Shown: positions 20,598 through 36,905 of the stretch, in pieces
Layout of the letters: the number at the start of each line of letters is the position of its first letter
Numbering within the stretch: position 1 is the stretch's first letter
DNA from: Bacteroidia bacterium
GTDB lineage: Bacteria; Bacteroidota; Bacteroidia; B-17B0; Aurantibacillaceae
Length of the DNA: 39,012 bases
Reading direction: 5' to 3'
Assembly: GCA_026414605.1 (NCBI GenBank)
Contig: JAOAIP010000057.1
Location: 1-39,012, forward strand
Position numbers and translations under genes: made by a program
Notes under the pieces: generated by a model
What the model was told of the DNA's origin: nothing
Database searches by the model: none
Seen by the model: only the letters and a program-made list of their open reading frames with translations

Positions 20598-20671
20598 GGT
20601 CCCATAGCTCAGCCGGTTAGAGCATCAGACTCATAATCTGAGGGTCCTTGGTTCGATCCCAAGTGGGACCA
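20598..20671 (+). tRNA. tRNA with CAT anticodon, probably elongator tRNA-Met
   Basis: GGTCCCA pairs with TGGGACC in the acceptor stem, discriminator A. The anticodon loop CTCATAA carries CAT between CAGA and TCTG arms. The T arm reads CTTGGTTCGATCCCAAG. The first pair is G-C, so it is not the initiator tRNA. The alternative is tRNA-Ile2, in which the C is modified to lysidine; sequence alone leaves this open. Confidence 0.93.
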
Positions 20672-20692
20672 CAAAAAAGTGAGTCAAAAAAT

Positions 20693-20786: not shown

Positions 20787-23700
20787 TTAGTTACTACTTA
20801 TCACATTTATACTTCCTTTGAATATCACATTACTATCTGTGAATTTGATAACATAATAATAGGCACCATCGGGCACTTTATTACCTTGATACGTTCCATC
20901 CCAATACACTTTCTTGTTATCATAATTCTTTCCATTAAATATCATTTGTCCATATCTATTAAATACTAAAACTTCATTATTTGGATATTGTTCTATCATA
21001 CCTATCCAAAAGTAATCGTTGATATTATCTCCATTGGGCGTCATAGTATTAGCAATAATGAGTTTGTAATCTTTTAGGACTAAAATACGAACTGAAGCAG
21101 TATCTATACATCCATAATTATCTTTCACAAAAACAATATAGGAAGTATCTTTGGTAGGCCATACAAATGGGTTATTGATAGTAGTATCAGATATGTTATA
21201 GTTAGGTATCCAAGTATAATTAACACCGCCACTGGCTATAATTTGTACTGAGTACCCTAAACTGATAGTAGTATCTGGAGTAGGTGATACAGCCGCTGCA
21301 TTAAAGTATTTCACATAAACAACAGCAGGGAGAGATGTATCTGGTGGACAAACGCCATTTTGAACAACCGCTTTATAAATCGTAGTATCTAATAGATTAT
21401 TGAAGTTATATATATTTCCCGTAAATCCTAAACTTGACCAGGTAGTACCATTATCATTTGAACTGATCCAATCAAGAACAGTTGTAGAGTATTGAACTAA
21501 TGAAATAGTACCTGAATTTAAACCATAACAGACCACTGTATCTTTCAAAAGTTTGCCTCCTTTTGAAGGTTGATCAATTTGAATAGTAACTATATTAGAA
21601 TACATTTCAGGACATACACCACTTTTTACTTTTACTCTATACTTAGTGGTAGTATTTAAATTTGAAAAAGGTTGTAAAGAAGTCGTATTTGCAATAGGAT
21701 ACCAAGTAAGACCTCCATCAGTAGAAGATTCCCAATTAAGAATAGTAGAAGTATAACCACTCACAGAAATTGTTCCTGAATTGCTTAATGCACAAAGTGT
21801 TTGATCAGACACTGCTGTCCCAGGAACTGTGGATGGAGAAACATTTACTTGTATTACATTAGTTGTATCAGAGGGACAAACACCATTTTTGACAATAGCA
21901 TAGTACCAAGTAGTATTCGTTAAGTTATTAAAAATATAATTCGGATTAGTATTACCAAGCGAAGACCAGGATGATCCACTATTGGTAGAAGAATACCAAT
22001 CTTGAATATTGCCTGTATAATTAACAATCGCCAATGTACCATTATTAGAAGACGCACATACGGCAGTATCTTTTAATAAAACTCCTGCATTAGAAGGTTG
22101 ATCAACAGTAATAGTTGCATTAGGTGAAGTATATGCAGCAGGACATCCTCCACTCTTTACATACGCTCTATAAATAGTTGTAACAGGAAGATTAGAGTAT
22201 GTTTGTGATGTGGTGATATTTGATAAACTGTACCAATTTATACCTCCATCTGGTGAATATTCCCAATATAAAACATTACCATTATTACCAACCACATTAA
22301 GTGTTCCGCTGTTGTTTGTAGCACAAACAGTAGCATTCGATACAATGCTTCCAGGAATAGTCGGTGGGGAAATGTTTACTACTTGATAAAGCGTATCATC
22401 ACAACCATAATCACTTGTAGCAGCAAGCATTACAGTGTAATTTCCGGCAGTTGTATAAATATGTTTAGGTTGAAATAAATTAGAATTGTTACCATCTCCG
22501 AAATCCCAATACCAATTAGCAATCGTTCCACTACCTCCAAGCCAAGAATAATTAGTAAAATATACTGTATCGTTCACACATTTAGGACTTGTAGCACTAA
22601 AAACTAAATTGGGCAATGGTTCTATAAATACAGTTTTACTTACAGAATCTTTACATCCAAAAGAGTTCGTAACTACTAAAGAAACATTTTTTCCACCTCC
22701 ATAAGAATAAACGACATTAGTAGCATTCATAGATGTAGTAGTAGATGGTGTTGCACCTATTCCTAAATACCATTGATAAGTGTATCCACCCCCACTACTT
22801 CCTGTATTGAAATAATTAACAGGTTGTTTATCTACACAGATATGATCGGTATAACTAAAATTAGCTGTTGGTTTAGGATTTACTATTTCTGTTTGCTGAG
22901 CAGAATTAATGGTATTTCCGCACGTAGCTCTTAGTTCTATATTGTATGTACCAGCGGGTAAGGTAACTGTTTGAGTTCCTATACCAGATACACTTAATGG
23001 TGAACCATTAGCAACCCATTCATAACACACAGCGGAGGTTGTACTACTTAAATTACTTAAAGTAATGACTTGTCCTTCGCAACTTACAGTAGGAGTAACA
23101 GATATAGATGGCGTAACAGCTGTACAAGAAATACACAAAAATTGTTCAGATGGCACTGGAGAACCAACGACAGGTGATGGGTAACTAATGGATGGATTTA
23201 TACTTTGATAGTTAGCTGCGGGTATATTATTAACTACAATATTTGCTGTTACATTGAGCGTATTAAACGGAGCATTAACTACATTGCAACCAACATTTCC
23301 TAATGAGTCCGTTTTAATGAACATTGGATCATAGTCGCCTGAACCAGGTGATGATTCTCTATTTGCAGACAGTACAAAATCTTTTCCTACGCTTATTACA
23401 TCAACTCCTCTATCGGCTCCCGCATCACCATAAGATTTTGCCCATTGAAGATTGCCTACACTATCCACTTTCATCAAAAAAGCATCCCTTCCACCATTAG
23501 TATAACTATAGGTATAACCCACCACAATAAATCCACCATCAGGTGTTTTATCAATTCCTTCTGCTATGTCATCTTGTGTACCTCCATATCTTTTTGCCCA
23601 TACTACATTACCTACACTATTTATTTTAATCAACAAAACATCCCATCCTCCCGCTGAAATGCTGCCATTATTAGTACATCCTGCTATAAGATATCCCCCA

Positions 23701-24443
23701 TCATTTGTAGGTATGCCTTCAATATCCCAATCACCTCTTCTTTCATTAGCACTTGTTCCATAAGTTTTTCCAAAAATCAAATTACCTGCCGCATCCAATT
23801 TTAAGACCATTAAATCCCCACTACCAGCACCATACGAGGTAGTTCCACCGCATACCCAAAAATTACCACTAGCAAAGTGAATAGAATTGGGTTGGTCATG
23901 TCCTGCACCTACCAGTTGTTTACTCCACAAATGAGTGCCTGAATTACTATAAAAAGAAACTAACCCCTCATAATTAGAACCTGTAGAATACCATCCACAT
24001 GTGGCTATTCCAAAAGGGACTTCTTCTACCCATACATTATATGCATTAGTACCCATAGGATAAGTTGCCAACCATTGCACACTTCCAGCAGCATTTAGTT
24101 TCATTAATGCATACTTATAAGGTGAATCATTGTATAAACCTGCCACCAAAAATCCACCATCACTGGCTTGTATCACTTTTTTACCCCCATCAGATGACCC
24201 TGATCCAAAAGTTTTATACCATAAGATATTTCCGCAATTGGATACTCTATAAACATAAATATCACAACCACCCGCTGGACCATTTTCGTGTTGTCCAGTT
24301 CCTACAAAACCACCATCACTGCATTTGGATAATCCTAATCCTCCATTCATTCCAGGGAAATTATATGTTCTTACAAATGTTTGTGATACCATTAATAAAC
24401 TGGCACACCAAAAAAATAATATACTAATATACTTTTTTTTCAT
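20787..24443 (-). CDS. Giant secreted propeller/PKD/Ig protein with CHU_C (T9SS type B) tail
   Basis: A 1218-residue secreted protein. After a signal peptide (MKKKYISILFFWCASLLMVS), residues about 40-390 form seven repeats of a blade pattern (DGGF.V.GYT......D.FL.K.D..GN..WAK.YGG), consistent with a seven-bladed beta-propeller. Then come an Ig-like domain (about 440-520), two PKD-like domains (about 525-608 and 610-692, the second with WYWDFGDGNNS), four Ig-like modules in X-Y-X-Y order (about 697-784, 785-871, 872-960, 961-1047), another Ig-like domain (about 1052-1122) and the gliding-motility-associated CHU_C domain (about 1124-1218, starting KDYKLIIANTMTPNGDN). CHU_C is the type B sorting tail of T9SS, so surface display or release is expected. 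A role in adhesion or matrix is inferred. It starts five bases after a small secreted-protein gene and is probably co-transcribed with it. Confidence 0.87.
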   Translation of the reverse strand: MKKKYISILFFWCASLLMVSQTFVRTYNFPGMNGGLGLSKCSDGGFVGTGQHENGPAGGCDIYVYRVSNCGNILWYKTFGSGSSDGGKKVIQASDGGFLVAGLYNDSPYKYALMKLNAAGSVQWLATYPMGTNAYNVWVEEVPFGIATCGWYSTGSNYEGLVSFYSNSGTHLWSKQLVGAGHDQPNSIHFASGNFWVCGGTTSYGAGSGDLMVLKLDAAGNLIFGKTYGTSANERRGDWDIEGIPTNDGGYLIAGCTNNGSISAGGWDVLLIKINSVGNVVWAKRYGGTQDDIAEGIDKTPDGGFIVVGYTYSYTNGGRDAFLMKVDSVGNLQWAKSYGDAGADRGVDVISVGKDFVLSANRESSPGSGDYDPMFIKTDSLGNVGCNVVNAPFNTLNVTANIVVNNIPAANYQSINPSISYPSPVVGSPVPSEQFLCISCTAVTPSISVTPTVSCEGQVITLSNLSSTTSAVCYEWVANGSPLSVSGIGTQTVTLPAGTYNIELRATCGNTINSAQQTEIVNPKPTANFSYTDHICVDKQPVNYFNTGSSGGGYTYQWYLGIGATPSTTTSMNATNVVYSYGGGKNVSLVVTNSFGCKDSVSKTVFIEPLPNLVFSATSPKCVNDTVYFTNYSWLGGSGTIANWYWDFGDGNNSNLFQPKHIYTTAGNYTVMLAATSDYGCDDTLYQVVNISPPTIPGSIVSNATVCATNNSGTLNVVGNNGNVLYWEYSPDGGINWYSLSNITTSQTYSNLPVTTIYRAYVKSGGCPAAYTSPNATITVDQPSNAGVLLKDTAVCASSNNGTLAIVNYTGNIQDWYSSTNSGSSWSSLGNTNPNYIFNNLTNTTWYYAIVKNGVCPSDTTNVIQVNVSPSTVPGTAVSDQTLCALSNSGTISVSGYTSTILNWESSTDGGLTWYPIANTTSLQPFSNLNTTTKYRVKVKSGVCPEMYSNIVTIQIDQPSKGGKLLKDTVVCYGLNSGTISLVQYSTTVLDWISSNDNGTTWSSLGFTGNIYNFNNLLDTTIYKAVVQNGVCPPDTSLPAVVYVKYFNAAAVSPTPDTTISLGYSVQIIASGGVNYTWIPNYNISDTTINNPFVWPTKDTSYIVFVKDNYGCIDTASVRILVLKDYKLIIANTMTPNGDNINDYFWIGMIEQYPNNEVLVFNRYGQMIFNGKNYDNKKVYWDGTYQGNKVPDGAYYYVIKFTDSNVIFKGSINVISSN
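20790..21180 (-). repeat. Shared 3' gene tail, copy A (mosaic)
   Basis: Encodes the CHU_C tail and preceding Ig strand. It matches copy B (24900 on) almost perfectly up to about 21010, then matches copy C almost perfectly from about 21053 to 21176 where B diverges. Confidence 0.8.
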
Positions 24444-24448
24444 AGTTA

Positions 24449-24802
24449 CTAATTTTTATTTGATTTTTCTAAATTATCTGTAAAATAAATTTCCTTGAAG
24501 TAGTTCATAGGAAATTGAAGTTCTCGTAAATAACTCATGTAATAATTTCTTAAACTATCAGGTTGAATAGCATTTGTAAGTTGAAATATCAACTTTGCAT
24601 TCCTCTCATCTTTTTCTAAAAATTTAATATTGAATTTTTGTGCTGCTTCAGTACTCAACTTTTGCCCAAAATGCGGACAATCTAAGATATTTCCTTTCAG
24701 TTGAACAATCATAAATGAATTAGTATTTTGTGCTTGAATTGATTTGTATGCAATCATCAATAAAATGCATACAAATAATGTGTTTAATTGAATTGCTTTC
24801 AT
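24449..24802 (-). CDS. Small secreted protein of unknown function
   Basis: A 117-residue product starting at the ATG at 24802, chosen because MKAIQLNTLFVCILLMIAYK plus SIQAQ is a clean signal peptide; an in-frame ATG at 24823 would add seven residues and lies across the -7 box. The mature part, about 95 residues, begins NTNSFMIVQLKGNILDCPHFG and has alternating strand/helix character that recalls the beta-alpha-beta-beta-alpha-beta heavy-metal-associated fold, but DCPHFG replaces the CxxC metal site, so I do not assign it. It lies between two paralogous propeller proteins, five bases upstream of the one ending at 20787, with a perfect -7 box in front. An accessory role for the large protein is a guess from position. 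Confidence 0.65.
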   Translation of the reverse strand: MKAIQLNTLFVCILLMIAYKSIQAQNTNSFMIVQLKGNILDCPHFGQKLSTEAAQKFNIKFLEKDERNAKLIFQLTNAIQPDSLRNYYMSYLRELQFPMNYFKEIYFTDNLEKSNKN

Positions 24803-24820
24803 AGGTTTTATTTTTGCTTG

Positions 24821-24828
24821 CAAATTTA
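24821..24828 (-). promoter_or_regulatory. -7 box for the small secreted gene and the propeller gene after it
   Basis: Minus-strand TAAATTTG is an exact TAnnTTTG match, 18 bases before the ATG at 24802. No clear -33 box; the region is a run of A on the plus strand. Confidence 0.5.
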
Positions 24829-24840
24829 AGGAATATCTTT

Positions 24841-25170
24841 CAAAAAAAAAACTAAACCAAAGAATTTATCTTTCAGGTTCTTCTTTATTTCTTCTCCTAA
24901 TTACTACTTATCACATTTATACTTCCTTTGAATATCACATTACTATCTGTGAATTTGATGACATAATAATAGGCACCATCGGGCACTTTATTACCTTGAT
25001 ATGTTCCATCCCAATACACTTTCTTGTTATCATAATTCTTTCCATTAAATATCATTTGTCCATATCTATTAAATACTAAAACTTCATTATTTGGATAATA
25101 CTCTATCATACCTATCCAAAAGAAATCATTAAAGTTATCACCGTTTGGCGTCATTGTATTAGCAATAATG
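24841..25170 (-). repeat. Shared 3' gene tail plus downstream flank, copy B
   Basis: Encodes the CHU_C tail of the gene ending at 24897 and includes about 56 bases beyond its stop. That flank is nearly identical to 36455-36507 beyond the stop of copy C, so the duplicated unit extended past the coding region. Confidence 0.8.
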
Positions 25171-28082
25171 AGTTTGTAATCTTTTAATACTTTAAATCTT
25201 ACACTTGCTGTATCCATACAGCCATATTGATTTTTTACAATAACTGTGTATACTGTATCTTTATAAGGCCAAACATACGGATTAAAAATAGTCGAGTCAG
25301 AGATATTATAAGAAGGGAACCATAAATAAGAACTTCCTCCACTTGCCTGAATTTGTATAGAAAATCCTAAACTAATCGTAGTATCAGTTGGAAAAACAAC
25401 AGCTCCCTTATATTTTTGTACATACACGGTTACAAAATTTGAAGTATCTGCTGGACACACACCATTTTTGACAATAACTGCATATTTCGTAGTATCTAAT
25501 AAGTTAGTAAAAGCATAAGTGGATGTTGTTACTCCTAATGATTGATAACCATTAGTTTCATCATAACTTATCCAATCTAGAATAGTTGATAAATAATTTG
25601 ATACTACAAATGTTCCATTATTAATCCCATAACAAACTACTGTATCTTTACTTAAAATACCTGCATTTGATTTCTTATCTACTTGAACCGTTGCAATAGG
25701 AGTAGAAAGGGGTGTGCATGCCCCATTTTGAACAACTGCAGCATAGTAAATTGTAGTATTTAAATTATAATAACCTTGTATAGATGCTGTATTTGAAAGG
25801 ACTGTCCAAGTAGTACCTGTATCAGCACTCATTTTCCAATATAAGATATTGCCATTAAATCCATTTAAGATTAAAGTTCCCAAATTAGCATCTTGGCAAA
25901 CAGTTGTAAAACTTGGTGAGATGTTTCCTGGTATTGTCAAAGCATCTACATTTATCACGTATTGTGCAGTGTCGTCACATCCATAATCAGATGTACCTAC
26001 TAATGTTACAGTATAAACGCCAGAACTTGTGTATTGATGTGTTGGATTTTTTACATTGCTCGTATTTCCATCGCCAAAATCCCAATACCAATTATTGAGT
26101 ACACTTCCACTTCCAATCCAACTATTATTAATAAAATTCACAGTATCCTGAACACATACAGGATTTTTAGAAACAAGAAAATCTACTGATGGGGATGGTT
26201 CAATAGATACTTGATGCAATATAGAGTCCTTGCAACCATAAGGATTTGTAATAACTAAAGCAACATTTTTAATGCCAGGATAGGCATATTGTACATTATT
26301 TGCATTTGGTGTATTCATTGTAGGTGGAATGGCTCCAGATCCTAAATACCATTGATAAATATAACCTATTCCTGATGAACCAACATTTATATAGTTTGTA
26401 GGTAATGACTCAAAACATACATTGTTTGTAAAAGTAAATTGGCTGTATGGTTTAGGATAAACATTCACTGTTTGTTGATAAGTGGCTATAGTATTTCCAC
26501 AAATAGCATTTAATTGAATGTAATAAGAACCTGCATTGGGCTGTAATATCACTGTATCTTTGTAATTGACGATATTGTTATTAATATTCCATTGAAAACA
26601 AGTACCACCAGAAACACCTGTAGATTGATTTTGTAAAATAAGGAAATCTCCTACACACAAACTTGGACTGGAAACCGAAAACGAAGGCGTAGGCACTGAA
26701 CAAGAAAAACAATCAAATTGTTCTGAAATGTTAGGATTTGTTGAAAACGGAACAGGATATTGAATAGACATATTAGCAGTAATATCTTGACTATTAGCAG
26801 AAACATTTATATTATTTGTAATAATGGATGATGAAACATCTGCTGAACTAAAAAAGGCAGATATTGAGTTACAACCCGAATTTCCAATAGAATCTAAACG
26901 AATAATCATGGGATCATATTCATTATTAAAACTACAAGTATTCAAAGTATTATTAAAATTCATTGTCAAAATATATCCATTTCCCATTCCTATAATACCT
27001 GTTCCATAATCACATCCTACTTTTCCATAACTTCTTGCCCAAATTAAATTTCCTGAATTATCTATTCTCATAACAAAAGCATCCCTATCTCCATTTGAAA
27101 ATGAATAAGTGTATCCAGTAATAACATACCCGCCAAAAGGCGATGCAATAATACTTTTTCCTACATCATCTAAACTTCCTCCATATCTTTTTGCCCATAC
27201 TACATTGCCCATTATGTCCACGTTAATTAACAATATATCCTTTCCTCCAGCAGTAATAGAAGTATTATCGGTATAACTCAAAATAAGTAAACCTCCTGGT
27301 GTTCTAATACATTTTACTTCTTTATCATTTCCTTCATTACCAGAAGTGCCATAAGTTTTTATCCAAGATATGTTACCTAAAATATCTGAATTTGCTAACA
27401 TTAAATCAAATTGTCCAGCCCCAAAAGAATTTGTATATCCACATAAGAAAACATCATTTGAATTTCCACTAACTATACTTTCAAATGCATCAATGCCATT
27501 ATTACCAATTACTTTAGAGAAAAGCATAGCCCCTGAATTGCCTGCTATTGAAGAAAAGATTGCATTATGATTAGACCAAGGAAAATTCTTTGTAGAACCA
27601 ACAACAACAAAATTTCCAGAACTTAATTCTAACACATCATTTCCAATGTCCTCATCATTAGCATTTGCATTATTTAATGTAGAATGCCAAATAGTATTGC
27701 CAAAAAAATCCGTTTTTAATATGGATATTTCTTGTTTACTTCCTGTCCCATTTTTGTCATCATAATATCCAGTGAGAATATATCCACCCGAAGAATGCTG
27801 CTTAACTTTATTAGCCCTATCATTAGTGGATGAACCAAAACTTCTAAACCAATCATTATTTCCGCAAGCACTTGCTTTATACACAAACATATCTGATTGA
27901 CCACCTATAGCAGTTTTAAATTCTCCAGCAATTACAAATCCCCCATCTTGTGTAAAAAATACACTATGAGCACCTGTATAATCAGGATAATTAAAACTTT
28001 TTACATAAGTTCCATTGTTTTGAGAATATGCAATTTGCACTAAAGAATTGATAATAATAGTAGCAATAAATATTTTTTTCAT
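24897..28082 (-). CDS. Giant secreted propeller/PKD/Ig protein with CHU_C tail, paralogue
   Basis: A 1061-residue paralogue of the protein encoded at 20787-24443. The signal peptide is MKKIFIATIIINSLVQIAYS. Seven propeller-like blades follow (for example GNVVWAKRYGGSLDDVGK and FGGYVITGYTYSFSNGDRDAF), then an Ig-like domain, two PKD-like domains (WYWDFGDGNTS in the second), one X-Y pair of Ig-like modules rather than two, a last Ig-like domain and the CHU_C type B tail. The shorter length is explained by the missing X-Y pair. Expected to be exported by T9SS to the cell surface; the ligand is unknown. The start lies 15 bases after the stop of the next upstream gene, so it is the last gene of a probable three-gene operon with 28098-31811 and 31816-36090. 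Confidence 0.87.
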   Translation of the reverse strand: MKKIFIATIIINSLVQIAYSQNNGTYVKSFNYPDYTGAHSVFFTQDGGFVIAGEFKTAIGGQSDMFVYKASACGNNDWFRSFGSSTNDRANKVKQHSSGGYILTGYYDDKNGTGSKQEISILKTDFFGNTIWHSTLNNANANDEDIGNDVLELSSGNFVVVGSTKNFPWSNHNAIFSSIAGNSGAMLFSKVIGNNGIDAFESIVSGNSNDVFLCGYTNSFGAGQFDLMLANSDILGNISWIKTYGTSGNEGNDKEVKCIRTPGGLLILSYTDNTSITAGGKDILLINVDIMGNVVWAKRYGGSLDDVGKSIIASPFGGYVITGYTYSFSNGDRDAFVMRIDNSGNLIWARSYGKVGCDYGTGIIGMGNGYILTMNFNNTLNTCSFNNEYDPMIIRLDSIGNSGCNSISAFFSSADVSSSIITNNINVSANSQDITANMSIQYPVPFSTNPNISEQFDCFSCSVPTPSFSVSSPSLCVGDFLILQNQSTGVSGGTCFQWNINNNIVNYKDTVILQPNAGSYYIQLNAICGNTIATYQQTVNVYPKPYSQFTFTNNVCFESLPTNYINVGSSGIGYIYQWYLGSGAIPPTMNTPNANNVQYAYPGIKNVALVITNPYGCKDSILHQVSIEPSPSVDFLVSKNPVCVQDTVNFINNSWIGSGSVLNNWYWDFGDGNTSNVKNPTHQYTSSGVYTVTLVGTSDYGCDDTAQYVINVDALTIPGNISPSFTTVCQDANLGTLILNGFNGNILYWKMSADTGTTWTVLSNTASIQGYYNLNTTIYYAAVVQNGACTPLSTPIATVQVDKKSNAGILSKDTVVCYGINNGTFVVSNYLSTILDWISYDETNGYQSLGVTTSTYAFTNLLDTTKYAVIVKNGVCPADTSNFVTVYVQKYKGAVVFPTDTTISLGFSIQIQASGGSSYLWFPSYNISDSTIFNPYVWPYKDTVYTVIVKNQYGCMDTASVRFKVLKDYKLIIANTMTPNGDNFNDFFWIGMIEYYPNNEVLVFNRYGQMIFNGKNYDNKKVYWDGTYQGNKVPDGAYYYVIKFTDSNVIFKGSINVISSN

Positions 28083-28097
28083 ATCTTAAATATGTTT

Positions 28098-31000
28098 TTA
28101 GTTAGATGATATAACATTAATGTGTCCTTTAAAAATTACATTTGAATTTGTGAATTTAAGAACATAATAATAGGTTCCATCAGGAACTTTATTTCCTTCA
28201 TAAGTTCCATTCCAAAATACATTCTTATTATCATAATTTTTTGCTTGATAAATCATTTGACCATACCTGTTAAAAATATATACTTCATTGTCCATATAAT
28301 TTTCAATATTACCTATCCACCATATATCATTTTTTCCATCGTTATTGGGAGTAATAGTATTAGCAATAATAATCTGATAATCTTTATTCACTATTATTCT
28401 AAATGATAAAGTATCATGGCATCCGTAAATATCTTTTACAATAACTTGATAGGTGGTATCTTGATAGGGCCAAACATAAGGATTAAATGAAAATGGATTG
28501 CTGATATTGTATTTAGGATCCCAATAATAATAATAACCACCTTCTGCAATTAATTGAATACTATCGCCTAAACTAATAGTATTAGTGAAAGACAAAGGTG
28601 TTGTAGCAATTAACTTTTTGACATAGATTGTAATAGAACGAGAAGTATCCACTGAACATACCCCATTTTTTACTGTTACTTTTATAAAAGTTGTATCAGT
28701 CAAATTACTTAAATACAAAGGATTTTGGCCATAAGAACCAGGAATAGTATCCCATACTACTCCATCATTTGAATAAAGCCAATATTGCGGATAGCCAACA
28801 TTATTTTGAATGTATAAATTCAAATTATTTCCTTCAATACAAACAACAGTATCTTTTAAAATCCTTCCTGCCTTTGAAGGAGCATCCACAGTTATGGTTG
28901 CAAAAGGGGTAGTATACATAGGAGGACAATCTCCACTTTTAATCAATGCTCTGTACCATCTTGTTGAACTCACATTACTAAATGGCTGAACCGTAGAAGT
29001 ATTATTGATTAAATACCAATTAACACCATAATTATCGGAATATTCCCATTGATACACTTGCCCCACATTACCAACTATTTGTAATGATCCAGAAGCATTG
29101 TTCGCACATACCGTTTGAGAAGTTATTACAATTCCAGAATTAGTATTAGGAGAAACTTGTATTGTCTTTGTTAAACTTGCTGTACAACCATAATCGGTGG
29201 TAGCAGTTAATGTAACACTATATGTCCCATTAGAAGAATAATGATGATTAACATGTTGTAAATTGCTAAAACTTCCATCCCCAAAATTCCATAACCAACT
29301 AACAATTTGACTCATTCCTCCGACCCAAGATAAATTGGTAAAATAAATACTATCACCTTGACAATTTTTGGTGTTATAGATAAAGTTCAAATCTGGTAAA
29401 GGTTCTACGTGTAAATATTTGGTAATACTATCTTTACACCCACTCGAAAGATTTGTTGCAACTAAGGTTACTGGATAAACGCCTGCCATTGTATATTGAG
29501 CCACTGCTGGATTTGCTATCGATACAGAAGGTGTCGATTGTGGACTTAAATTCCAAGATACACTATAAGATCCTGTTGAAGTGAGGATAGAGGGTGTCAA
29601 AGTAAACTGAGCACTATTTTCACACTTGTACCAATTATCCGGAGTAAAATTAAGTTGCACAAACCCAGGTCGAACAAAAACTGTGGAAGGATTTGAAGTT
29701 TTACATCCATTTGTAGGGCTGATATATTCTAAAGTATATGTAGTAGTAGCAGAGGGAGATACCGCAATAGAGGGACTAATATTTCCACTTGGCCACCAAA
29801 TATAAGTACCACCCGGAGGATTCACTGATGTAGGCGACAACACTATACTATTGACAGGTGACGCACAATAAGTGAAATTACTCATTGTAATTGTAGGACT
29901 TGGCTGAACATTTACCTGAATAGTAGATGATTGTGGACAACCATCAAGTGAAAAATAATTTACAGTATAAGTTGTTGAAGTAGTAGGTGAAACAGCAATA
30001 GAAGATGATGTGATATTTCCTGGCATCCAAGTATAACTTCCCCCTGATGGACTGATAGTTGGATTAAGTATAGCACTCGATAAATAACAAATTGTAGGAT
30101 GGGTAACAGCAATGGTAGGAGTAGGAAATACGGTTATTGTGGTCATTGATTTATCATTACATCCAGCCGAAGTGCTAACTTCCAAAGTATAAATAGTAGT
30201 TACAGACGGACTTACATTGATAGTTGAATTATTAGACCCAGTGGGTATCCAAGTATAACTTAACCCACTTGCAGGATTTACAGTAGAACTAATAATAACA
30301 CTATTACCACTGCATAATGTAGAAGAAGAGAGTGCAATAGTAGGTGTTGGATTAACCGTTAAAGTAAAAGTGCCAGAAGCAGGACAACTATTGGGTGCGG
30401 TATAATTAACCGTATACACTTGTGAAGTCAAAGGGGAAACAACAATACTGGATGAGTTAGCCCCTGTCGGATTCCACGTAAAAGTTCCCCCTGCCATACT
30501 TGGACTTGCAGAAAGAGTAGCACTTTGTCCTGTACATATACTATTTGAATTACTATTAACAGACAAGGTAATGGGTGGTGAAAAATTCAAGGTCATTGTT
30601 TTCACAATAGGATTGCATATTCCGGGAGGACTCATCACTAATGTATAAACCCCTGCAACAGTAGTAGTTATAGATTGATTAGGATTATTAGTGATTCCGC
30701 TTCCAGAAGGACCATTCCAATTATATGGAGCCAAACCAGCTGGTGCAGTTAATGTTGCTGATGTAGCACCGCATGCTGTAACACTTATATTATTATTACC
30801 GGCAGGAAATTGAATGCCATTTACATCTATTGTAATAGGTTTACAAATAGCATCAAAATAGGCATAACCAAAGTGCCCCGTCCAAGTACAATCATAAACA
30901 TCCACAATAATACTTATATTTTGACCCAAAAAACTTGTTAAATCAATAGAACCAATTTGCCAATTTGGATTGTAAACTACCGCACCAGAACTTACCCATC

Positions 31001-31811
31001 CTGCTGGTAAAGGTGGACACCCTCCTTGTGGGACAGATACTTCAACTTGAGGACATCCTAATATATTCCCAGAAGGATCTATTATTCTAATTTTTATTTT
31101 TGGAACTGCACAACAGGGATGTGAATTACCTGGCACATTCAAAACTGCAATATAAGCAAATTGAAATAAAGCATTATTAGGTGTTACATTAATATTTTTC
31201 CGAATTCTTACCGCTCTTGCACCAACTGCGGCATCATTTAGCATTGCTACTTTCGTTCCACCAAATGGAGAAGCGGGTATAGCACCAACATAAGGATCAC
31301 TAAAAGGTGTAGTCATTACGTTAGCTAAACCAAATCCTGACCCACAACAACCCGCCCCTGTACAAGCATCTGACACTATCCCTGTATTCACAATCCACCC
31401 CGTAAAATCACCCGTTTCGAAATCTTCATTATTACAAGCAGCACTAAAAATTTCATTTGATGTAGAATTTCTAAAATAAGAACCTTCATTTCCGTGATAA
31501 TGATTACAAGTCAACTGGTACTTTTGATTGATGAATTCTCTTTTTTTAATGTATAATAGATATTTTTGAGACAATTCATCTTTTGTCTCTGCCTCAATTT
31601 CTTCTTTAACAACTTGCTCATTAAAACCTTCTAATGAATCTTTATCAAATTGATACAACAACAACTTTTCAACAAACTTTCTTTCATTATATTCATCATA
31701 TTCATTATTGACATTTATTTGAGAAAACAAAATATCTTGAAAAAAAATTAAGAATATCAAGAAAAGGGAATGCCTTATCGTTCTTGATAAGACAAATTTA
31801 TTTGTTTTCAT
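28098..31811 (-). CDS. Giant secreted jelly-roll/Ig/PKD protein with CHU_C tail
   Basis: A 1237-residue secreted protein. A signal peptide (HSLFLIFLIFFQDILFSQ) is followed by a charged helical stretch (about 35-100) and a cysteine-bearing region (about 130-335: NNEDFETGDFTGWIVNTG ... GTKVAMLNDAAVGARAVRI ... GHFGYAYFDAICKP) that looks like a jelly-roll or MAM-like fold. Then come four or five Ig-like repeats of about 80 residues (pattern C.G....L......GG.YTW.P....S.I.VSP...T.YTV.Y....GC), two PKD-like domains (WLWNFGDGSFS), one X-Y Ig pair, a final Ig-like domain and a CHU_C tail more diverged than those of its neighbours (KDYQIIIANTITPNNDGKND). Probable surface adhesin by T9SS. Four bases separate it from the upstream gene. 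Confidence 0.85.
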   Translation of the reverse strand: MKTNKFVLSRTIRHSLFLIFLIFFQDILFSQINVNNEYDEYNERKFVEKLLLYQFDKDSLEGFNEQVVKEEIEAETKDELSQKYLLYIKKREFINQKYQLTCNHYHGNEGSYFRNSTSNEIFSAACNNEDFETGDFTGWIVNTGIVSDACTGAGCCGSGFGLANVMTTPFSDPYVGAIPASPFGGTKVAMLNDAAVGARAVRIRKNINVTPNNALFQFAYIAVLNVPGNSHPCCAVPKIKIRIIDPSGNILGCPQVEVSVPQGGCPPLPAGWVSSGAVVYNPNWQIGSIDLTSFLGQNISIIVDVYDCTWTGHFGYAYFDAICKPITIDVNGIQFPAGNNNISVTACGATSATLTAPAGLAPYNWNGPSGSGITNNPNQSITTTVAGVYTLVMSPPGICNPIVKTMTLNFSPPITLSVNSNSNSICTGQSATLSASPSMAGGTFTWNPTGANSSSIVVSPLTSQVYTVNYTAPNSCPASGTFTLTVNPTPTIALSSSTLCSGNSVIISSTVNPASGLSYTWIPTGSNNSTINVSPSVTTIYTLEVSTSAGCNDKSMTTITVFPTPTIAVTHPTICYLSSAILNPTISPSGGSYTWMPGNITSSSIAVSPTTSTTYTVNYFSLDGCPQSSTIQVNVQPSPTITMSNFTYCASPVNSIVLSPTSVNPPGGTYIWWPSGNISPSIAVSPSATTTYTLEYISPTNGCKTSNPSTVFVRPGFVQLNFTPDNWYKCENSAQFTLTPSILTSTGSYSVSWNLSPQSTPSVSIANPAVAQYTMAGVYPVTLVATNLSSGCKDSITKYLHVEPLPDLNFIYNTKNCQGDSIYFTNLSWVGGMSQIVSWLWNFGDGSFSNLQHVNHHYSSNGTYSVTLTATTDYGCTASLTKTIQVSPNTNSGIVITSQTVCANNASGSLQIVGNVGQVYQWEYSDNYGVNWYLINNTSTVQPFSNVSSTRWYRALIKSGDCPPMYTTPFATITVDAPSKAGRILKDTVVCIEGNNLNLYIQNNVGYPQYWLYSNDGVVWDTIPGSYGQNPLYLSNLTDTTFIKVTVKNGVCSVDTSRSITIYVKKLIATTPLSFTNTISLGDSIQLIAEGGYYYYWDPKYNISNPFSFNPYVWPYQDTTYQVIVKDIYGCHDTLSFRIIVNKDYQIIIANTITPNNDGKNDIWWIGNIENYMDNEVYIFNRYGQMIYQAKNYDNKNVFWNGTYEGNKVPDGTYYYVLKFTNSNVIFKGHINVISSN

Positions 31812-31815
31812 AATT

Positions 31816-34800
31816 TTAATTTTTTATAACTTTTGTGTATGTTTGTATTCCTTCTTTTTTAAGTTCAAGAATATATACCCCATTTGGCAAATCCATAATA
31901 TCAATACCAATTAAATCATCTCTTATAAGTTTTTTATCAATACTCATTTTTTGGCCTAATGAATTGTACATATTTACATCTAATTCATTTAATTTGAAAC
32001 TCACGTTATTGCTTTCAATAAGCAACCTGTCTAAAACAGGATTAGGATATATTAGTAATGAACTCAAAAATGTTAATTCTTCAACCCCAGTTACACAATT
32101 TATTTGCACAGTATATTGTTTAATACATCCTGCTTGATCTTTTACATTTACCGTATAGGTTCCACTATACAGAAAATTGACTTGATTGGTTTGATAATTT
32201 CCTGGAGTCCAAGTATAACTATAACTTCCTATACCGCCACTAGGCGTAATTGTTGCTGCACCATTATTACAAATTGGCATTACAGCATCTTGCGATTGAA
32301 TACTTGCTGTTATTTGAGAAACTTTTATTTCAATTGTTTTTGTTGTACTAGAACATACTCCTTGACTTCCTTGGACACTATATGTAGTTGAAACCGAAGG
32401 AGAAACGGTAATTGAAGAACCTGTATAAGTATTCCCAAAAGAACTTGTCCAAGTATAATTTGTTGCACCATTTGCTGTTAAGGTTACCGTTCCTATATCG
32501 CATATTACATTAGAACTTGCAGAAAGATTGATGTTGGGTGTATTTGAAGTATAAATTTGAACGGTTTTTGTATCACTACAATTTCCTGAATATCCCGTAA
32601 CAGTAAAATTTGTATTAGCATTTAATGATGTACTTACTACACTTCCTGCATAATAAGTACCATTACTTCCAACCCACGAATAGGTAATTGCTCCACTAGC
32701 AGACATTGTAAATGTTTGACCAGAACAAACCGTATTTGATGGAAGAGAAATTGAAACTGTAGGTTGGGGCACTACACTTAAATTAAATTGGTTTTCACCC
32801 ATACATCCATAAGAATTGACACCACTTACTGTATACGTTGTAGATACAGAAGGACTCACAACAATAACATTGGTATATGAACTTCCTGAGGGTGAAGTCC
32901 ATGTATAATTATTTGCTCCACTTACTGCTAATGTTGCAGAACTTCCATTACATATAGCATTAGAGGATGCAGATATGTTAAGGTTGGGTACAGGATAAAC
33001 AAAAACTGTTTGTTGATTAATAGATGCACATCCAAACGAATTAGTACCCATTACTGTATACGTTTGAATACCAGGCGATGCTGCAATGGGGATATAGACA
33101 TAAGGATTGGTAGATACAGTTGAAGTAGGAGTTGTCCAAGTATAGTTTATTGCCCCAGATGCAGATAATGTAACTGTTGTTTGAGCACACATAGTACTAC
33201 TGCTTGCAGAAGTTGTAATAGTTGGATTTGGATAAACCGATATATTTGTTATATTTTGACCAAAACATCCATTACTATCATAACCATATACTGTATAAGA
33301 TTGCGTAGCAGTAGGTGTATAAGTAACCGGGTCGTAGGTATATGAAGTACTACCATTCGTCCAAGTAAAATTAGTTAATCCTGTTTGAGATAACATTACA
33401 GAATTTCCTTGACACAAAGTAGAAGATGATACTGTCAATGCAATAGTCGGTTGACTATAGACAGATATTGATACTGTATTACTTCCGTTGCATCCATTAG
33501 TAGTAGATACTTGTACTGAATAGGTTGTGTTTACGGATGGAGAAACAACTATTGAACTTGTGGTAGCACCAGTATTCCAAGAGTAACTATCTCCCCCCGA
33601 AGCAATTAATGTTGTTGTTAATCCTGCACAAAGCGGATTTTGTGTAACAAAAACATAAGGCGTACTAAATGTTCCCACTCTCACACTATCAATATCTATC
33701 CAATAATCACCTGAGCCCCATTTTGCCTCAATCTTAATTCTTACATATTGCCCTGTATAACTTGAACCTATACAAAATTGCGCTTTTTGAAAAGAGGTTG
33801 TTTTATTATGCTTACTTCCATTAATATATCCAATTAAATTCCACGTATTGCCACAATTATTAGAAACATATACCTTAATAGAATCATTATTAGAATAATT
33901 TGTAGCCAATCCACCTGGGTTAATATAATCAATATTATCCGTTATGCGATATAAAAAGGAAACAGCCGCATTACCTCCAATAGGACCAATCACAGGTGTC
34001 TTAAACCAAGTTTTTGTCGCATAGATATACATATTACTACACAACCCTCTTGTTGGCGGATTACCAGCACCATGTTCATAAACAAGATCAGTAACTCTTG
34101 TGTAGAAAGAGTTCGCGTCACTTAATTTATCATTTTGCCAATAGAGTGGAAGCCCAAATGGTGGAGATGCATCAAAAGTTTCCAATGTCGGATACGACAA
34201 CTTTGCACTTGTATAAATGTACTTTATAGTATCATTTCCTATATTCATATCTCCTGGTGTCTTTGCAAATAATTTGATAGTATAAGTTCCCGCTGGGCTC
34301 ATATTAAAACTACCTAAATTCGCAGTGGCTGTATTTAATGATGTAATACTCGGTATAGTGGCCGTTAAAGTCCCCGAATTAGGACCTTGAATAACTACTC
34401 CAACAGTATTACTTGTAACAGTATTACTTCCATAATTTTTTACTTTTACTATAAATGTTTCAGTAAAGAAACAATTGTCATAATTAGTGGGTTGTATAAT
34501 GGAAAGTGCTCCTATATCAGTAGGATACAAATCGTATAAGTTGATATTATCAATGTGTAAATCATAATTATTTGGATCAGCCACTGTTCCATCGGTTGCA
34601 TAGAAAGCAATAATAACAGGCGTATTTGAATAACTCGCTAATGATACAGTAAAATTAGTCAATGTATTAGGCAGATTATTAGATGCACTAATTGTGAAAA
34701 TTGGTGTATAACTTAAACCACAATTTGTAGATATCATAACATATAATCTATCATCACTCCCCATTGTGGCAGGTGCAAAAACATTATTTACATCAGTAAC

Positions 34801-36090
34801 AGCTGCATCAAAACTAAGTATAGTACTATTTGTAGGAACGACAATAGGTCCAATAATCCATTCATTCTTTACAGTAGATAATAAATTCACCTTTGCAGTA
34901 AAGTTGGTAGGACCATCCAAGCCAATAGCATATTCCCATTGACTAACAGTTCCAGTAGGAACAGATCCACCTTGTCCTTCGTACCAACCGTTAAATAAAG
35001 CACTTAAATTGGTTCCATCATAATTAGTAAAATCAACATATTGCGGTAATGGGAAAGTAGGTGGCTTATAATAAGTAGCATACGAAGTATCGTTATTAAA
35101 ATTAATATCTCCTACAATAGATGTATAGGCCTTAAAATAATAAGTTCCTGATGCAGACATATTAGCCACTCCCACATTCATTGTAGCACTACTTCCCGCA
35201 GTAATAGTTCCTGTATATGTTGCAAGTAAATTTTGAGAATTGGCCCCACTAATTTTTACGTTGACTGGAAAATTTGATATATCTACACTTCCATAATTGT
35301 TGATTGAAACGATAACGTTTTCATTATTTGCATAACAACCCGTAGATTGGGGAGATAATATTGCACTTACACCTCCATCTACATTAGCACATTGAGGACC
35401 AAAATTGAATATCAAACCAGATGTAGGTTTATTTTTTATATTCGTTGTCTCAAGTGTTTTAGAAACCGCTGCCGATAGTGCTAAGGTATCAACAGAATAA
35501 AAGTCGCCTCCTATAGGACCGGCTAAACCAATAGAAGCACTACCATTATTGACATTTCCTGCTAAAACATCATAAACAAATTCAATTTTATTAGTACCTT
35601 CATACAACTTCACTTGAAAAGAAACAGCAGATGCTGTCGCACTTTTATCCCATCTTATAGTTTTCCATTCAATTGTCAGAACTCTACTACCAGGAGAACC
35701 CGTTCTTCTGTAAGCCACTCTACCCCCGAATGGTGAGGTCAACAAGTCATCCCACAATGGAGCGATAATAGGCCTATTAGGAACATTCGTCAAATCATTA
35801 TTAGGATACGAATTTGTGATGGTATTGGAGGTTGTCGTTAAATAAATAAATCCATTTGTACTCACTTGCATTGTATCATATTTTACACAACCATACAAAA
35901 ATGGGAAACCAATAGCAATTGGTGGAGAAATAGCATCATCTACGCCTGCACCAAATATAGTTGTTGCCCCTCCTGGCAATGCATTAAATGAACCATTAGA
36001 AGCATTAAATGTATAAGATATTTGTGCAATTGAACTAAAACTAACTAATAACAATACTACCAATATTCTTAAAACTGAAAATCTTTGCAT
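31816..36090 (-). CDS. Giant secreted multidomain protein with T9SS type A tail
   Basis: A 1424-residue secreted protein. The start is the ATG at 36090, giving MQRFSVLRILVVLLLVSFSS and IAQ as signal peptide; an in-frame ATG at 36132 would add 14 residues ahead of it. The N-terminal beta domain (YTFNASNGSFNALPGGATT, with TNGFIYL and PLWDDL) is followed by two CARDB-like segments (INNYGSVDISNFPVNVKISG and VKNYGSNTVTSNTVGVVIQG), each followed by a MAM/jelly-roll-like region (WEYAIGLDGP and WYWI-type strands). Six Ig-like repeats follow (for example CNGSSATLAVSGANNYTW) and one SprB-like repeat. The last about 75 residues, starting LLIYPNPVLDRLLIE and ending VYILELKKEGIQTYTKVIKN, are the T9SS type A sorting domain. 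It is the first gene of the probable operon reaching to 24897. Confidence 0.87.
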   Translation of the reverse strand: MQRFSVLRILVVLLLVSFSSIAQISYTFNASNGSFNALPGGATTIFGAGVDDAISPPIAIGFPFLYGCVKYDTMQVSTNGFIYLTTTSNTITNSYPNNDLTNVPNRPIIAPLWDDLLTSPFGGRVAYRRTGSPGSRVLTIEWKTIRWDKSATASAVSFQVKLYEGTNKIEFVYDVLAGNVNNGSASIGLAGPIGGDFYSVDTLALSAAVSKTLETTNIKNKPTSGLIFNFGPQCANVDGGVSAILSPQSTGCYANNENVIVSINNYGSVDISNFPVNVKISGANSQNLLATYTGTITAGSSATMNVGVANMSASGTYYFKAYTSIVGDINFNNDTSYATYYKPPTFPLPQYVDFTNYDGTNLSALFNGWYEGQGGSVPTGTVSQWEYAIGLDGPTNFTAKVNLLSTVKNEWIIGPIVVPTNSTILSFDAAVTDVNNVFAPATMGSDDRLYVMISTNCGLSYTPIFTISASNNLPNTLTNFTVSLASYSNTPVIIAFYATDGTVADPNNYDLHIDNINLYDLYPTDIGALSIIQPTNYDNCFFTETFIVKVKNYGSNTVTSNTVGVVIQGPNSGTLTATIPSITSLNTATANLGSFNMSPAGTYTIKLFAKTPGDMNIGNDTIKYIYTSAKLSYPTLETFDASPPFGLPLYWQNDKLSDANSFYTRVTDLVYEHGAGNPPTRGLCSNMYIYATKTWFKTPVIGPIGGNAAVSFLYRITDNIDYINPGGLATNYSNNDSIKVYVSNNCGNTWNLIGYINGSKHNKTTSFQKAQFCIGSSYTGQYVRIKIEAKWGSGDYWIDIDSVRVGTFSTPYVFVTQNPLCAGLTTTLIASGGDSYSWNTGATTSSIVVSPSVNTTYSVQVSTTNGCNGSNTVSISVYSQPTIALTVSSSTLCQGNSVMLSQTGLTNFTWTNGSTSYTYDPVTYTPTATQSYTVYGYDSNGCFGQNITNISVYPNPTITTSASSSTMCAQTTVTLSASGAINYTWTTPTSTVSTNPYVYIPIAASPGIQTYTVMGTNSFGCASINQQTVFVYPVPNLNISASSNAICNGSSATLAVSGANNYTWTSPSGSSYTNVIVVSPSVSTTYTVSGVNSYGCMGENQFNLSVVPQPTVSISLPSNTVCSGQTFTMSASGAITYSWVGSNGTYYAGSVVSTSLNANTNFTVTGYSGNCSDTKTVQIYTSNTPNINLSASSNVICDIGTVTLTANGATNYTWTSSFGNTYTGSSITVSPSVSTTYSVQGSQGVCSSTTKTIEIKVSQITASIQSQDAVMPICNNGAATITPSGGIGSYSYTWTPGNYQTNQVNFLYSGTYTVNVKDQAGCIKQYTVQINCVTGVEELTFLSSLLIYPNPVLDRLLIESNNVSFKLNELDVNMYNSLGQKMSIDKKLIRDDLIGIDIMDLPNGVYILELKKEGIQTYTKVIKN

Positions 36091-36105
36091 AATTAAATTT
36101 TTATG

Positions 36106-36133
36106 CAAAATTACAAAATATATCAAATACAAA
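36106..36133 (-). promoter_or_regulatory. Promoter of the giant-protein operon
   Basis: Minus-strand TAATTTTG (36113-36106) is an exact -7 box 15 bases before the ATG at 36090, with TTTG (36133-36130) 16 bases upstream, slightly close for a -33 box. Confidence 0.55.
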
Positions 36134-36507
36134 ATAAATTTTTTTGTAAATTTAACAAAAAATTAAAATCAATGAATTCGAATTAAATGAACAAATGATT
36201 TTTAATGTTTAATATGTTTAAACTTTTTTAGGTAGTATTTTCAAAGAGAAATTACTTTTAAATTATTTTTCCACTTAATTTAAGATACATCTTCAAAAAG
36301 TTTGTCTGTATTAATCAAGCCCTTTTCAGAATTTATCTCTTAATATTTATCAAACGTCACTAAAATTTTTTACCACATTTTAAATTATGAAAACTTTCTC
36401 ATTCATTACTTCAAACTATTTGCGTCAACTTTGTAATTTATTAAATGAATAATGACAAAAAACCAAACCAAACAATTTATCTTTCAAGTTCTTCTTTATT
36501 TTTTCTC
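36134..36507. other. Intergenic stretch without a gene
   Basis: AT-rich region between the promoter at 36106-36133 and the stop of the next minus-strand gene. Its last about 53 bases (36455-36507) are the copied flank also found at 24841-24896. I see no clear terminator and no structure in the rest. Confidence 0.6.
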
Positions 36508-36905
36508 CTAATTACTACTTATCACATTTATACTTCCTTTGAATATCACATTACTATCTGTGAATTTGATAACATAATAATAGGCACCATCGGGCACCTT
36601 ATTACCTTGATACGTTCCATCCCAATACACTTTCTTGTTATCGTAATTATTTCCCTTAAATATCTCCTGTCCGTATCTGTTGAATACTATAACTTCGTTA
36701 TTGGGGTAGTTTTCGATAAAACCAATCCAGAAGAAGTCATTGTAATTATCACCATTGGGCGTCATTGTATTAGCAATAATGAGTTTGTAATCTTTTAGGA
36801 CTAAAATACGAACTGAAGCAGTATCTATACATCCATAATTATCTTTCACAAAAACAATATAGGAAGTATCTTTGGTAGGCCATACAAATGGGTTATTAAT
36901 AGTAG
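36455..36905 (-). repeat. Shared 3' gene tail plus downstream flank, copy C
   Basis: CHU_C-encoding tail of the gene ending at 36508 with its copied downstream flank. It agrees with A and B up to about 36640, is divergent from both from about 36643 to 36745, then is identical or nearly so to copy A from about 36750 to 36895. Confidence 0.8.

Follow-up and report, generated by a model that had tools for sequence, protein, structure and literature searches.

Mosaic 3' ends of three type B secretion-substrate genes in a Bacteroidia bacterium point to repeated gene conversion

The 39,012 nucleotides (nt) analysed here, referred to below as the window, are positions 1-39012 of contig C70 in G000, a draft genome (2.48 Mb, 76 contigs) of an uncultured Bacteroidia bacterium. 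On the minus strand they carry large genes A, B and C, predicted substrates of the type IX secretion system (T9SS), each with its own body and a type B sorting tail. Near their 3' ends, these three genes form a mosaic of shared stretches whose partner changes from one patch to the next. We conclude, from comparison of the sequences, that the tails of A, B and C have very probably been homogenised by gene conversion, repeatedly, and that B' and C', the counterparts of B and C in a second species, underwent the same independently. Genes A to E belong to the window; B', C', D' and E' are their orthologues in genome G002, and A' is the orthologue of A in genome G003. Throughout, the basis is draft assemblies with one genome per species. 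The features on which the argument depends are the following.

20787-24443, minus strand: gene A, 1218 amino acids (aa), T9SS type B substrate with tail copy A; TIGR04131 63.3 bits, PF13585 77.7 bits
24897-28082, minus strand: gene B, 1061 aa, T9SS type B substrate with tail copy B; TIGR04131 62.2 bits; orthologue L116:5794-8985, 70% aa
36508-39012, minus strand: gene C, open reading frame (ORF) with 834 aa visible, 5' end cut by the window end, tail copy C; TIGR04131 61.9 bits; orthologue L115:14073-17378, 82% aa over the shared part
20805-21059, minus strand: CHU_C (type B sorting) domain of A, PF13585, residues 1129-1213
24915-25169, minus strand: CHU_C domain of B, PF13585, residues 972-1056
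36526-36780, minus strand: CHU_C domain of C, PF13585, residues 650-734 of a 739-aa ORF
20790-20921, minus strand: last coding part of the tail; any two of A, B and C agree at 129 or 130 of 132 positions
20893-20987, minus strand: longest exact A=B tract, 95 nt
25003-25097, minus strand: its partner in B
21046-21176, minus strand: A=C tract, 131 nt exact, mostly upstream of the CHU_C domain
36767-36897, minus strand: its partner in C
24892-24959: exact B=C tract, 68 nt, spanning the stop codon
24846-24899, minus strand: stop codon and 3' flank of B, common to C and not to A (extent counted by eye)
36457-36510, minus strand: stop codon and 3' flank of C, common to B

The mosaic of the three tails

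A first-pass annotation of this DNA had reported that the tails starting at 20790, 24900 and 36511 are nearly identical for about 140 bases, that A then follows B at about 20930-21010 while C differs, and that at about 21053-21176 A is essentially identical to C while B differs. All three observations hold. Over the last 132 nt (20790-20921), each pair is about 98% identical (A-B 129/132, A-C 130/132, B-C 129/132). In the middle part (20922-21045), A and B agree at 112 of 124 positions, against 97 of 124 for both A-C and B-C. The upper patch (21046-21176) reverses the partnership: A and C are identical at all 131 positions, compared with 95/131 for A-B and for B-C. Further upstream (21300-21700), identity drops to 55-61% for all three pairs. 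Divergence along the aligned tails is patchy, not uniform.

When the last 480 nt are aligned by codon, A, B and C differ at 115 sites, 56 of them silent. Read from the 5' side, they pass from a mixed region to a long run of A=C sites, then to a run of A=B sites, and finally to near identity of all three copies. The longest A-C run covers 36 sites and the longest A-B run 13; neither was matched in any of 20,000 shuffles of all sites. When the silent sites alone were shuffled, the A-C run never recurred and the A-B run did so in 0.26% of cases. As a control, the same procedure was applied to the gene bodies, where runs were short, the A-C run was matched by 155 of 10,000 shuffles of all sites, and the silent-site runs were nothing unusual. 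The mosaic is thus real in the sequence, and it is confined to the tail or far stronger there than in the body.

The annotation had placed the conversion over the CHU_C sorting tail. The tail is indeed affected, but the A=C tract begins upstream of the CHU_C domain and lies mostly outside it, so that the converted unit would not coincide exactly with the sorting domain. In the region of this tract, 42 of 43 silent codons are identical across a 44-codon stretch.

Three further features go beyond that annotation: likeness of B and C past the stop codon, a fourth tail copy in gene D, and the unrelated type A tail of gene E. Past the stop codon, B and C are alike for about 50 nt and A is different. 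This common flank was also considered as a transcription terminator; its folding z-scores were -0.18 and 0.48 and it was absent from the terminator scan, so the candidate was dropped. The tail of D is more diverged (73% identity over the matched part), with silent identity to the tails of A-C of 46-59%, and these values give no clear sign of recent exchange between D and the other three.

Silent sites, orthologues and trees

Close tails were searched for in 41 genomes and found only within the same genus, in G002, where a single contig holds three copies, and in G003, which has one; G001, the fourth genome of the genus, has no tail of this kind. Genes C', E', D' and B' of G002 are syntenic with C, E, D and B of the window, and in G003 the end of A' is present.

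Silent identity was taken as the share of same-residue positions that use the same codon. Over the last 85 codons, it is high between paralogues in the window, at 68/77 (88%) for A-B, 58/74 (78%) for A-C and 56/75 (75%) for B-C, whereas between orthologues it is 34/70 (49%) for B-B', 32/72 (44%) for C-C' and 57% for A-A'. In the bodies it is 46-56% for every pair, paralogous or orthologous. Orthologous tails are therefore as free at silent sites as the bodies are, and yet paralogous tails are alike, which argues for exchange of DNA and not for selection on protein or RNA. A similar likeness is seen in the second species, where the tails of B' and C' differ by 1 residue in 85 and, taken in 45-nt steps along their last 270 nt, show 84-98% identity.

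Trees were built from the bodies (codons -330 to -150) and from the tails (last 85 codons), and clades were compared by the approximately unbiased (AU) test; window copies are labelled wA, wB and wC, G002 copies g2B and g2C, and the G003 copy g3A. The body tree groups sequences by gene, with wB+g2B and wC+g2C each supported at 100/99, and the AU test rejects the clades wA+wB+wC (p 4e-49) and g2B+g2C (p 3e-39). In the tail tree it is the groupings by gene that are rejected, wB+g2B with AU p 9e-79 and wC+g2C with AU p 2e-7. This conflict between tail and body, together with the mosaicism at silent sites, strongly supports the earlier proposal of gene conversion between paralogues. In the window lineage the exchange is younger than the species split, and a separate, older one joined B' and C' (silent identity 72%). 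Since B' and C' share a tail in the second species, homogenisation has occurred at least twice.

Proposed mechanism and competing explanations

Genes A, B, C and D score 61.9-71.1 bits against TIGR04131, above the curated cut-off of 35. Hydrophobic N-termini are visible by eye in A, B and D; C is without its N-terminus, being cut by the window end. G000 encodes the T9SS translocon protein SprA (TIGR04189, 2429.5 bits), and a profile search gave 11 matches to PorP/SprF-type shuttle genes. The G002 SprA gene (G002:C5:172709-179854) is split by stops or frameshifts, perhaps sequencing errors. None of the 11 shuttle matches lies on contig C70, and hence none beside A-D. Absence of an adjoining shuttle is no argument against substrate status, because 26 of the 31 type B genes of G000 have no PorP/SprF gene within 1.5 kb. 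Excerpts of two studies on Flavobacterium johnsoniae describe PorP/SprF-like shuttles that recognise type B C-terminal domains (CTDs) (PMC12618676; PMC9143113); in the first of these, three orphan CTDs use one shuttle, and the CTD also determines the final place of the cargo (PMC12618676).

We propose that A, B, C and D are old paralogues, and that homologous recombination between sister copies, assumed to depend on RecA-type enzymes, repeatedly copied short stretches over the 3' ends of A, B and C. As the bodies remain in place and syntenic, the tails would have been overwritten in situ in short tracts, leaving a mosaic with differing partners whose exact tracts today measure 68-131 nt. The tail is most likely the stretch that selection has kept similar enough to recombine. 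Conversion would then keep A-C addressed to one common PorP/SprF-type shuttle, a shuttle proposed because no shuttle gene was found on contig C70. By analogy with F. johnsoniae, such a common shuttle is a plausible reason for keeping the tails alike. It can also be that the tail is simply the only stretch similar enough to recombine, a view compatible with a shared shuttle.

To see how general the pattern is, type B tails were compared within each of three genomes (130 TIGR04131 matches: 31 in G000, 52 in G002 and 47 in G010; 2872 pairs). Apart from the window cluster and the corresponding genes of G002, a single array was conspicuous, that of four tandem type B genes on contig G002:C18 (L205, 2101-10364). 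Genes 1, 3 and 4 have a common tail, with exact stretches of 195-246 nt, and the tail of gene 2 is different. Gene 4 has 518 nt identical to an upstream part of gene 3 and 328 nt identical to the middle of gene 2, yet its tail is not that of gene 2 but that of genes 1 and 3, with exact matches of 195 and 228 nt. Read at face value, this is a re-pairing of body and tail, although repeats this long, on a contig of 15.8 kb, could also have led an assembler astray. In G010, whose assembly is the best of the three, no pair resembles A-C, and the best tail pair is 80% identical at the nt level.

The influence of distance was examined on 212 of the 2872 pairs, after dropping those with tails less than 50% identical in aa, short sequence or too few comparable body codons. 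Silent identity of the tail exceeded that of the body by more than 0.2 in 7 of 29 near pairs versus 13 of 183 far pairs (Fisher p 0.0095). The median excess, however, is 0.03 in both groups, several of the far cases depend on a small number of codons, and the same gene can enter more than one pair; we take this as only a hint that proximity favours homogenisation of tails.

Several results weigh against our interpretation or blur parts of it. The likeness of the B' and C' tails is older, with silent identity of 70-72%, and the tail tree does not resolve g2B and g2C as a clade. In the best tail tree wA, wB and wC do group together, but support for this clade is only 80/92, and the AU test on the tails does not reject wA+g3A (p 0.157). 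Donor and recipient are ambiguous: the A=C tract has 17 sites like g2C versus 12 like g3A, and the A=B tract divides its informative sites 11 versus 13. Against a shared shuttle, in the three genomes the median best-partner identity of orphan tails was not higher than that of PorP-linked ones (Mann-Whitney p 0.29-0.63). A partner with at least 80% identity was commoner among orphan tails (27/103) than among PorP-linked tails (2/27; Fisher p 0.04, on genes that are not independent). Finally, with a draft assembly and a single genome per species, assembly error may have contributed.

That last concern deserves weighing in full: near-identical tails could have been collapsed, or joined chimerically, during metagenome assembly. 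The genome is in 76 contigs, the window end truncates C, and the 131 nt of the A=C tract are close to usual assembler word and read lengths. An artefact is nevertheless improbable. Tail and body also conflict in G002, a separate genome whose tail sequence is its own; E follows C in both genomes; and with partners switching within 400 nt and private differences between the tracts, several neighbouring errors would be needed. Still less credible is that no recombination took place and that strong purifying selection, or a constraint on codons or RNA, preserved the likeness. The tail is the most conserved part of the protein in all copies, but silent identity of the orthologous A, B and C tails (44-57%) is that of the bodies, so that silent sites are free; moreover, most of the A=C tract is upstream of CHU_C, and B has no part in it. 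The tandem arrangement of related genes might instead suggest that whole genes were duplicated recently and that their bodies then diverged fast. We regard this as equally far-fetched, because each of the bodies of B, C, D and E pairs with a single syntenic orthologue in G002, and that of A with one in G003, and because the body clades B+B' and C+C' stand at 100/99; the duplications are older than the species split.

The first-pass annotation had gone on to suggest a system in which surface domains are swapped while the export tail stays constant. At this locus the suggestion is not supported: the bodies of B, C, D and E keep their order and orthologues in G002, and every copy is a long open gene. 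No silent store was apparent, since the tail DNA matches the draft genome only 4 times, always at the ends of long open genes, and no recombinase was found among the annotated window proteins. Gene 4 of the C18 array, with its re-paired body and tail, speaks for such swapping and keeps the idea possible for the genus, but the same long exact repeats on a 15.8-kb contig could have misled the assembler. Overall we consider a dedicated variation system improbable, and retain gene conversion between paralogous tails as the explanation.

A broader reading is that type B tails serve as exchangeable address labels, with recombination keeping orphan sets on one shuttle, as in the window, and now and then re-pairing body and tail, as in G002:C18. 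We think this rather unlikely. If true, a re-paired body would be rerouted to a different PorP/SprF shuttle and surface location with the body itself unchanged. 

Gene conversion of the tails, for its part, shows that a secretion address can evolve apart from the cargo: within one genome, neighbouring genes copy from each other, and their export tails are thereby held alike or exchanged. Phylogenies of type B tails may for that reason mislead on the history of the proteins that carry them, and re-pairing of cargo and shuttle becomes testable with tail fusions.

Gene neighbourhood and comparison with known systems

In transcription order on the minus strand, the locus reads C, E, D, B, a 124-aa ORF, and A. 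The remaining features are these.

28098-31811, minus strand: gene D, 1237 aa, fourth tail copy; TIGR04131 71.1 bits; orthologue L116:2098-5772, 75% aa
28116-28370, minus strand: CHU_C domain of D, PF13585, residues 1148-1232
31816-36132, minus strand: gene E, flanked by C and D; its tail is of type A (TIGR04183) and lies outside the homogenised set
24449-24823: ORF of 124 aa separating B from A; its N-terminus is hydrophobic and it matches nothing in Pfam or NCBIfam
20598-20672: tRNA-Met, beyond A, as are succinate dehydrogenase genes

By the neighbouring succinate dehydrogenase gene, the closest relatives found are uncultured Bacteroidota, the best being the Flavobacteriales metagenome-assembled genome SKW189 (84% identity). 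Gene A has an additional pair of repeat modules, about 160 aa, relative to B, C and D, and A' of G003 apparently has it too. The 266 N-terminal residues expected for C were not found elsewhere in the genome in a search with the G002 orthologue. The G002 counterpart of E (L115:17724 to L116:2060) looks broken, its last part being a separate 124-aa ORF 52% identical to the end of E. After B', in the place that A occupies in the window, G002 has another type B gene, X (L116:9210-12704); the part of its body that was compared is 95% identical at the DNA level to a gene on another contig (G002:C9:97211).

The process invoked here, gene conversion, is of a known and ordinary kind; the interesting part is its target, the T9SS type B address tail. 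Searches of an open-access library for this phenomenon in T9SS tails gave no paper that describes it, judging by titles and the opening of abstracts. The type B CTD on A-D is what likens them to the pairs of type B CTD and PorP/SprF shuttle in F. johnsoniae; the excerpts on that species do not treat the evolution of the CTDs. Rhs proteins undergo C-terminal displacement, in which a constant N-terminal core acquires a variable C-terminal tip. There too a constant part is joined to a varying part by recombination, but the polarity is opposite and the bodies at the window locus are not displaced. As for cassette-type antigenic variation, of the pilE/pilS kind, silent partial donor copies were not found in the draft genome.

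In Porphyromonas gingivalis, adhesin-domain variants of kgp, rgpA and hagA have been compared between strains, according to excerpts of PMC5266723. As these excerpts present them, those are likewise large T9SS-exported surface proteins of Bacteroidota, with modules reshuffled by recombination and a conserved C-terminal domain, though that CTD is of another family (IPR026444), and homogenised tails on old bodies do not feature in these excerpts. The nearest parallel in process is concerted evolution by gene conversion, described in excerpts on bacterial release factors (PMC4530459) and on mtrA in methanogens (PMC4632066). As in concerted evolution among paralogues generally, the copies in the window are closer to one another than to their orthologues over part of the gene, in patches and with silent sites included; the difference is that the converted part here is the T9SS type B sorting tail of surface-protein genes.

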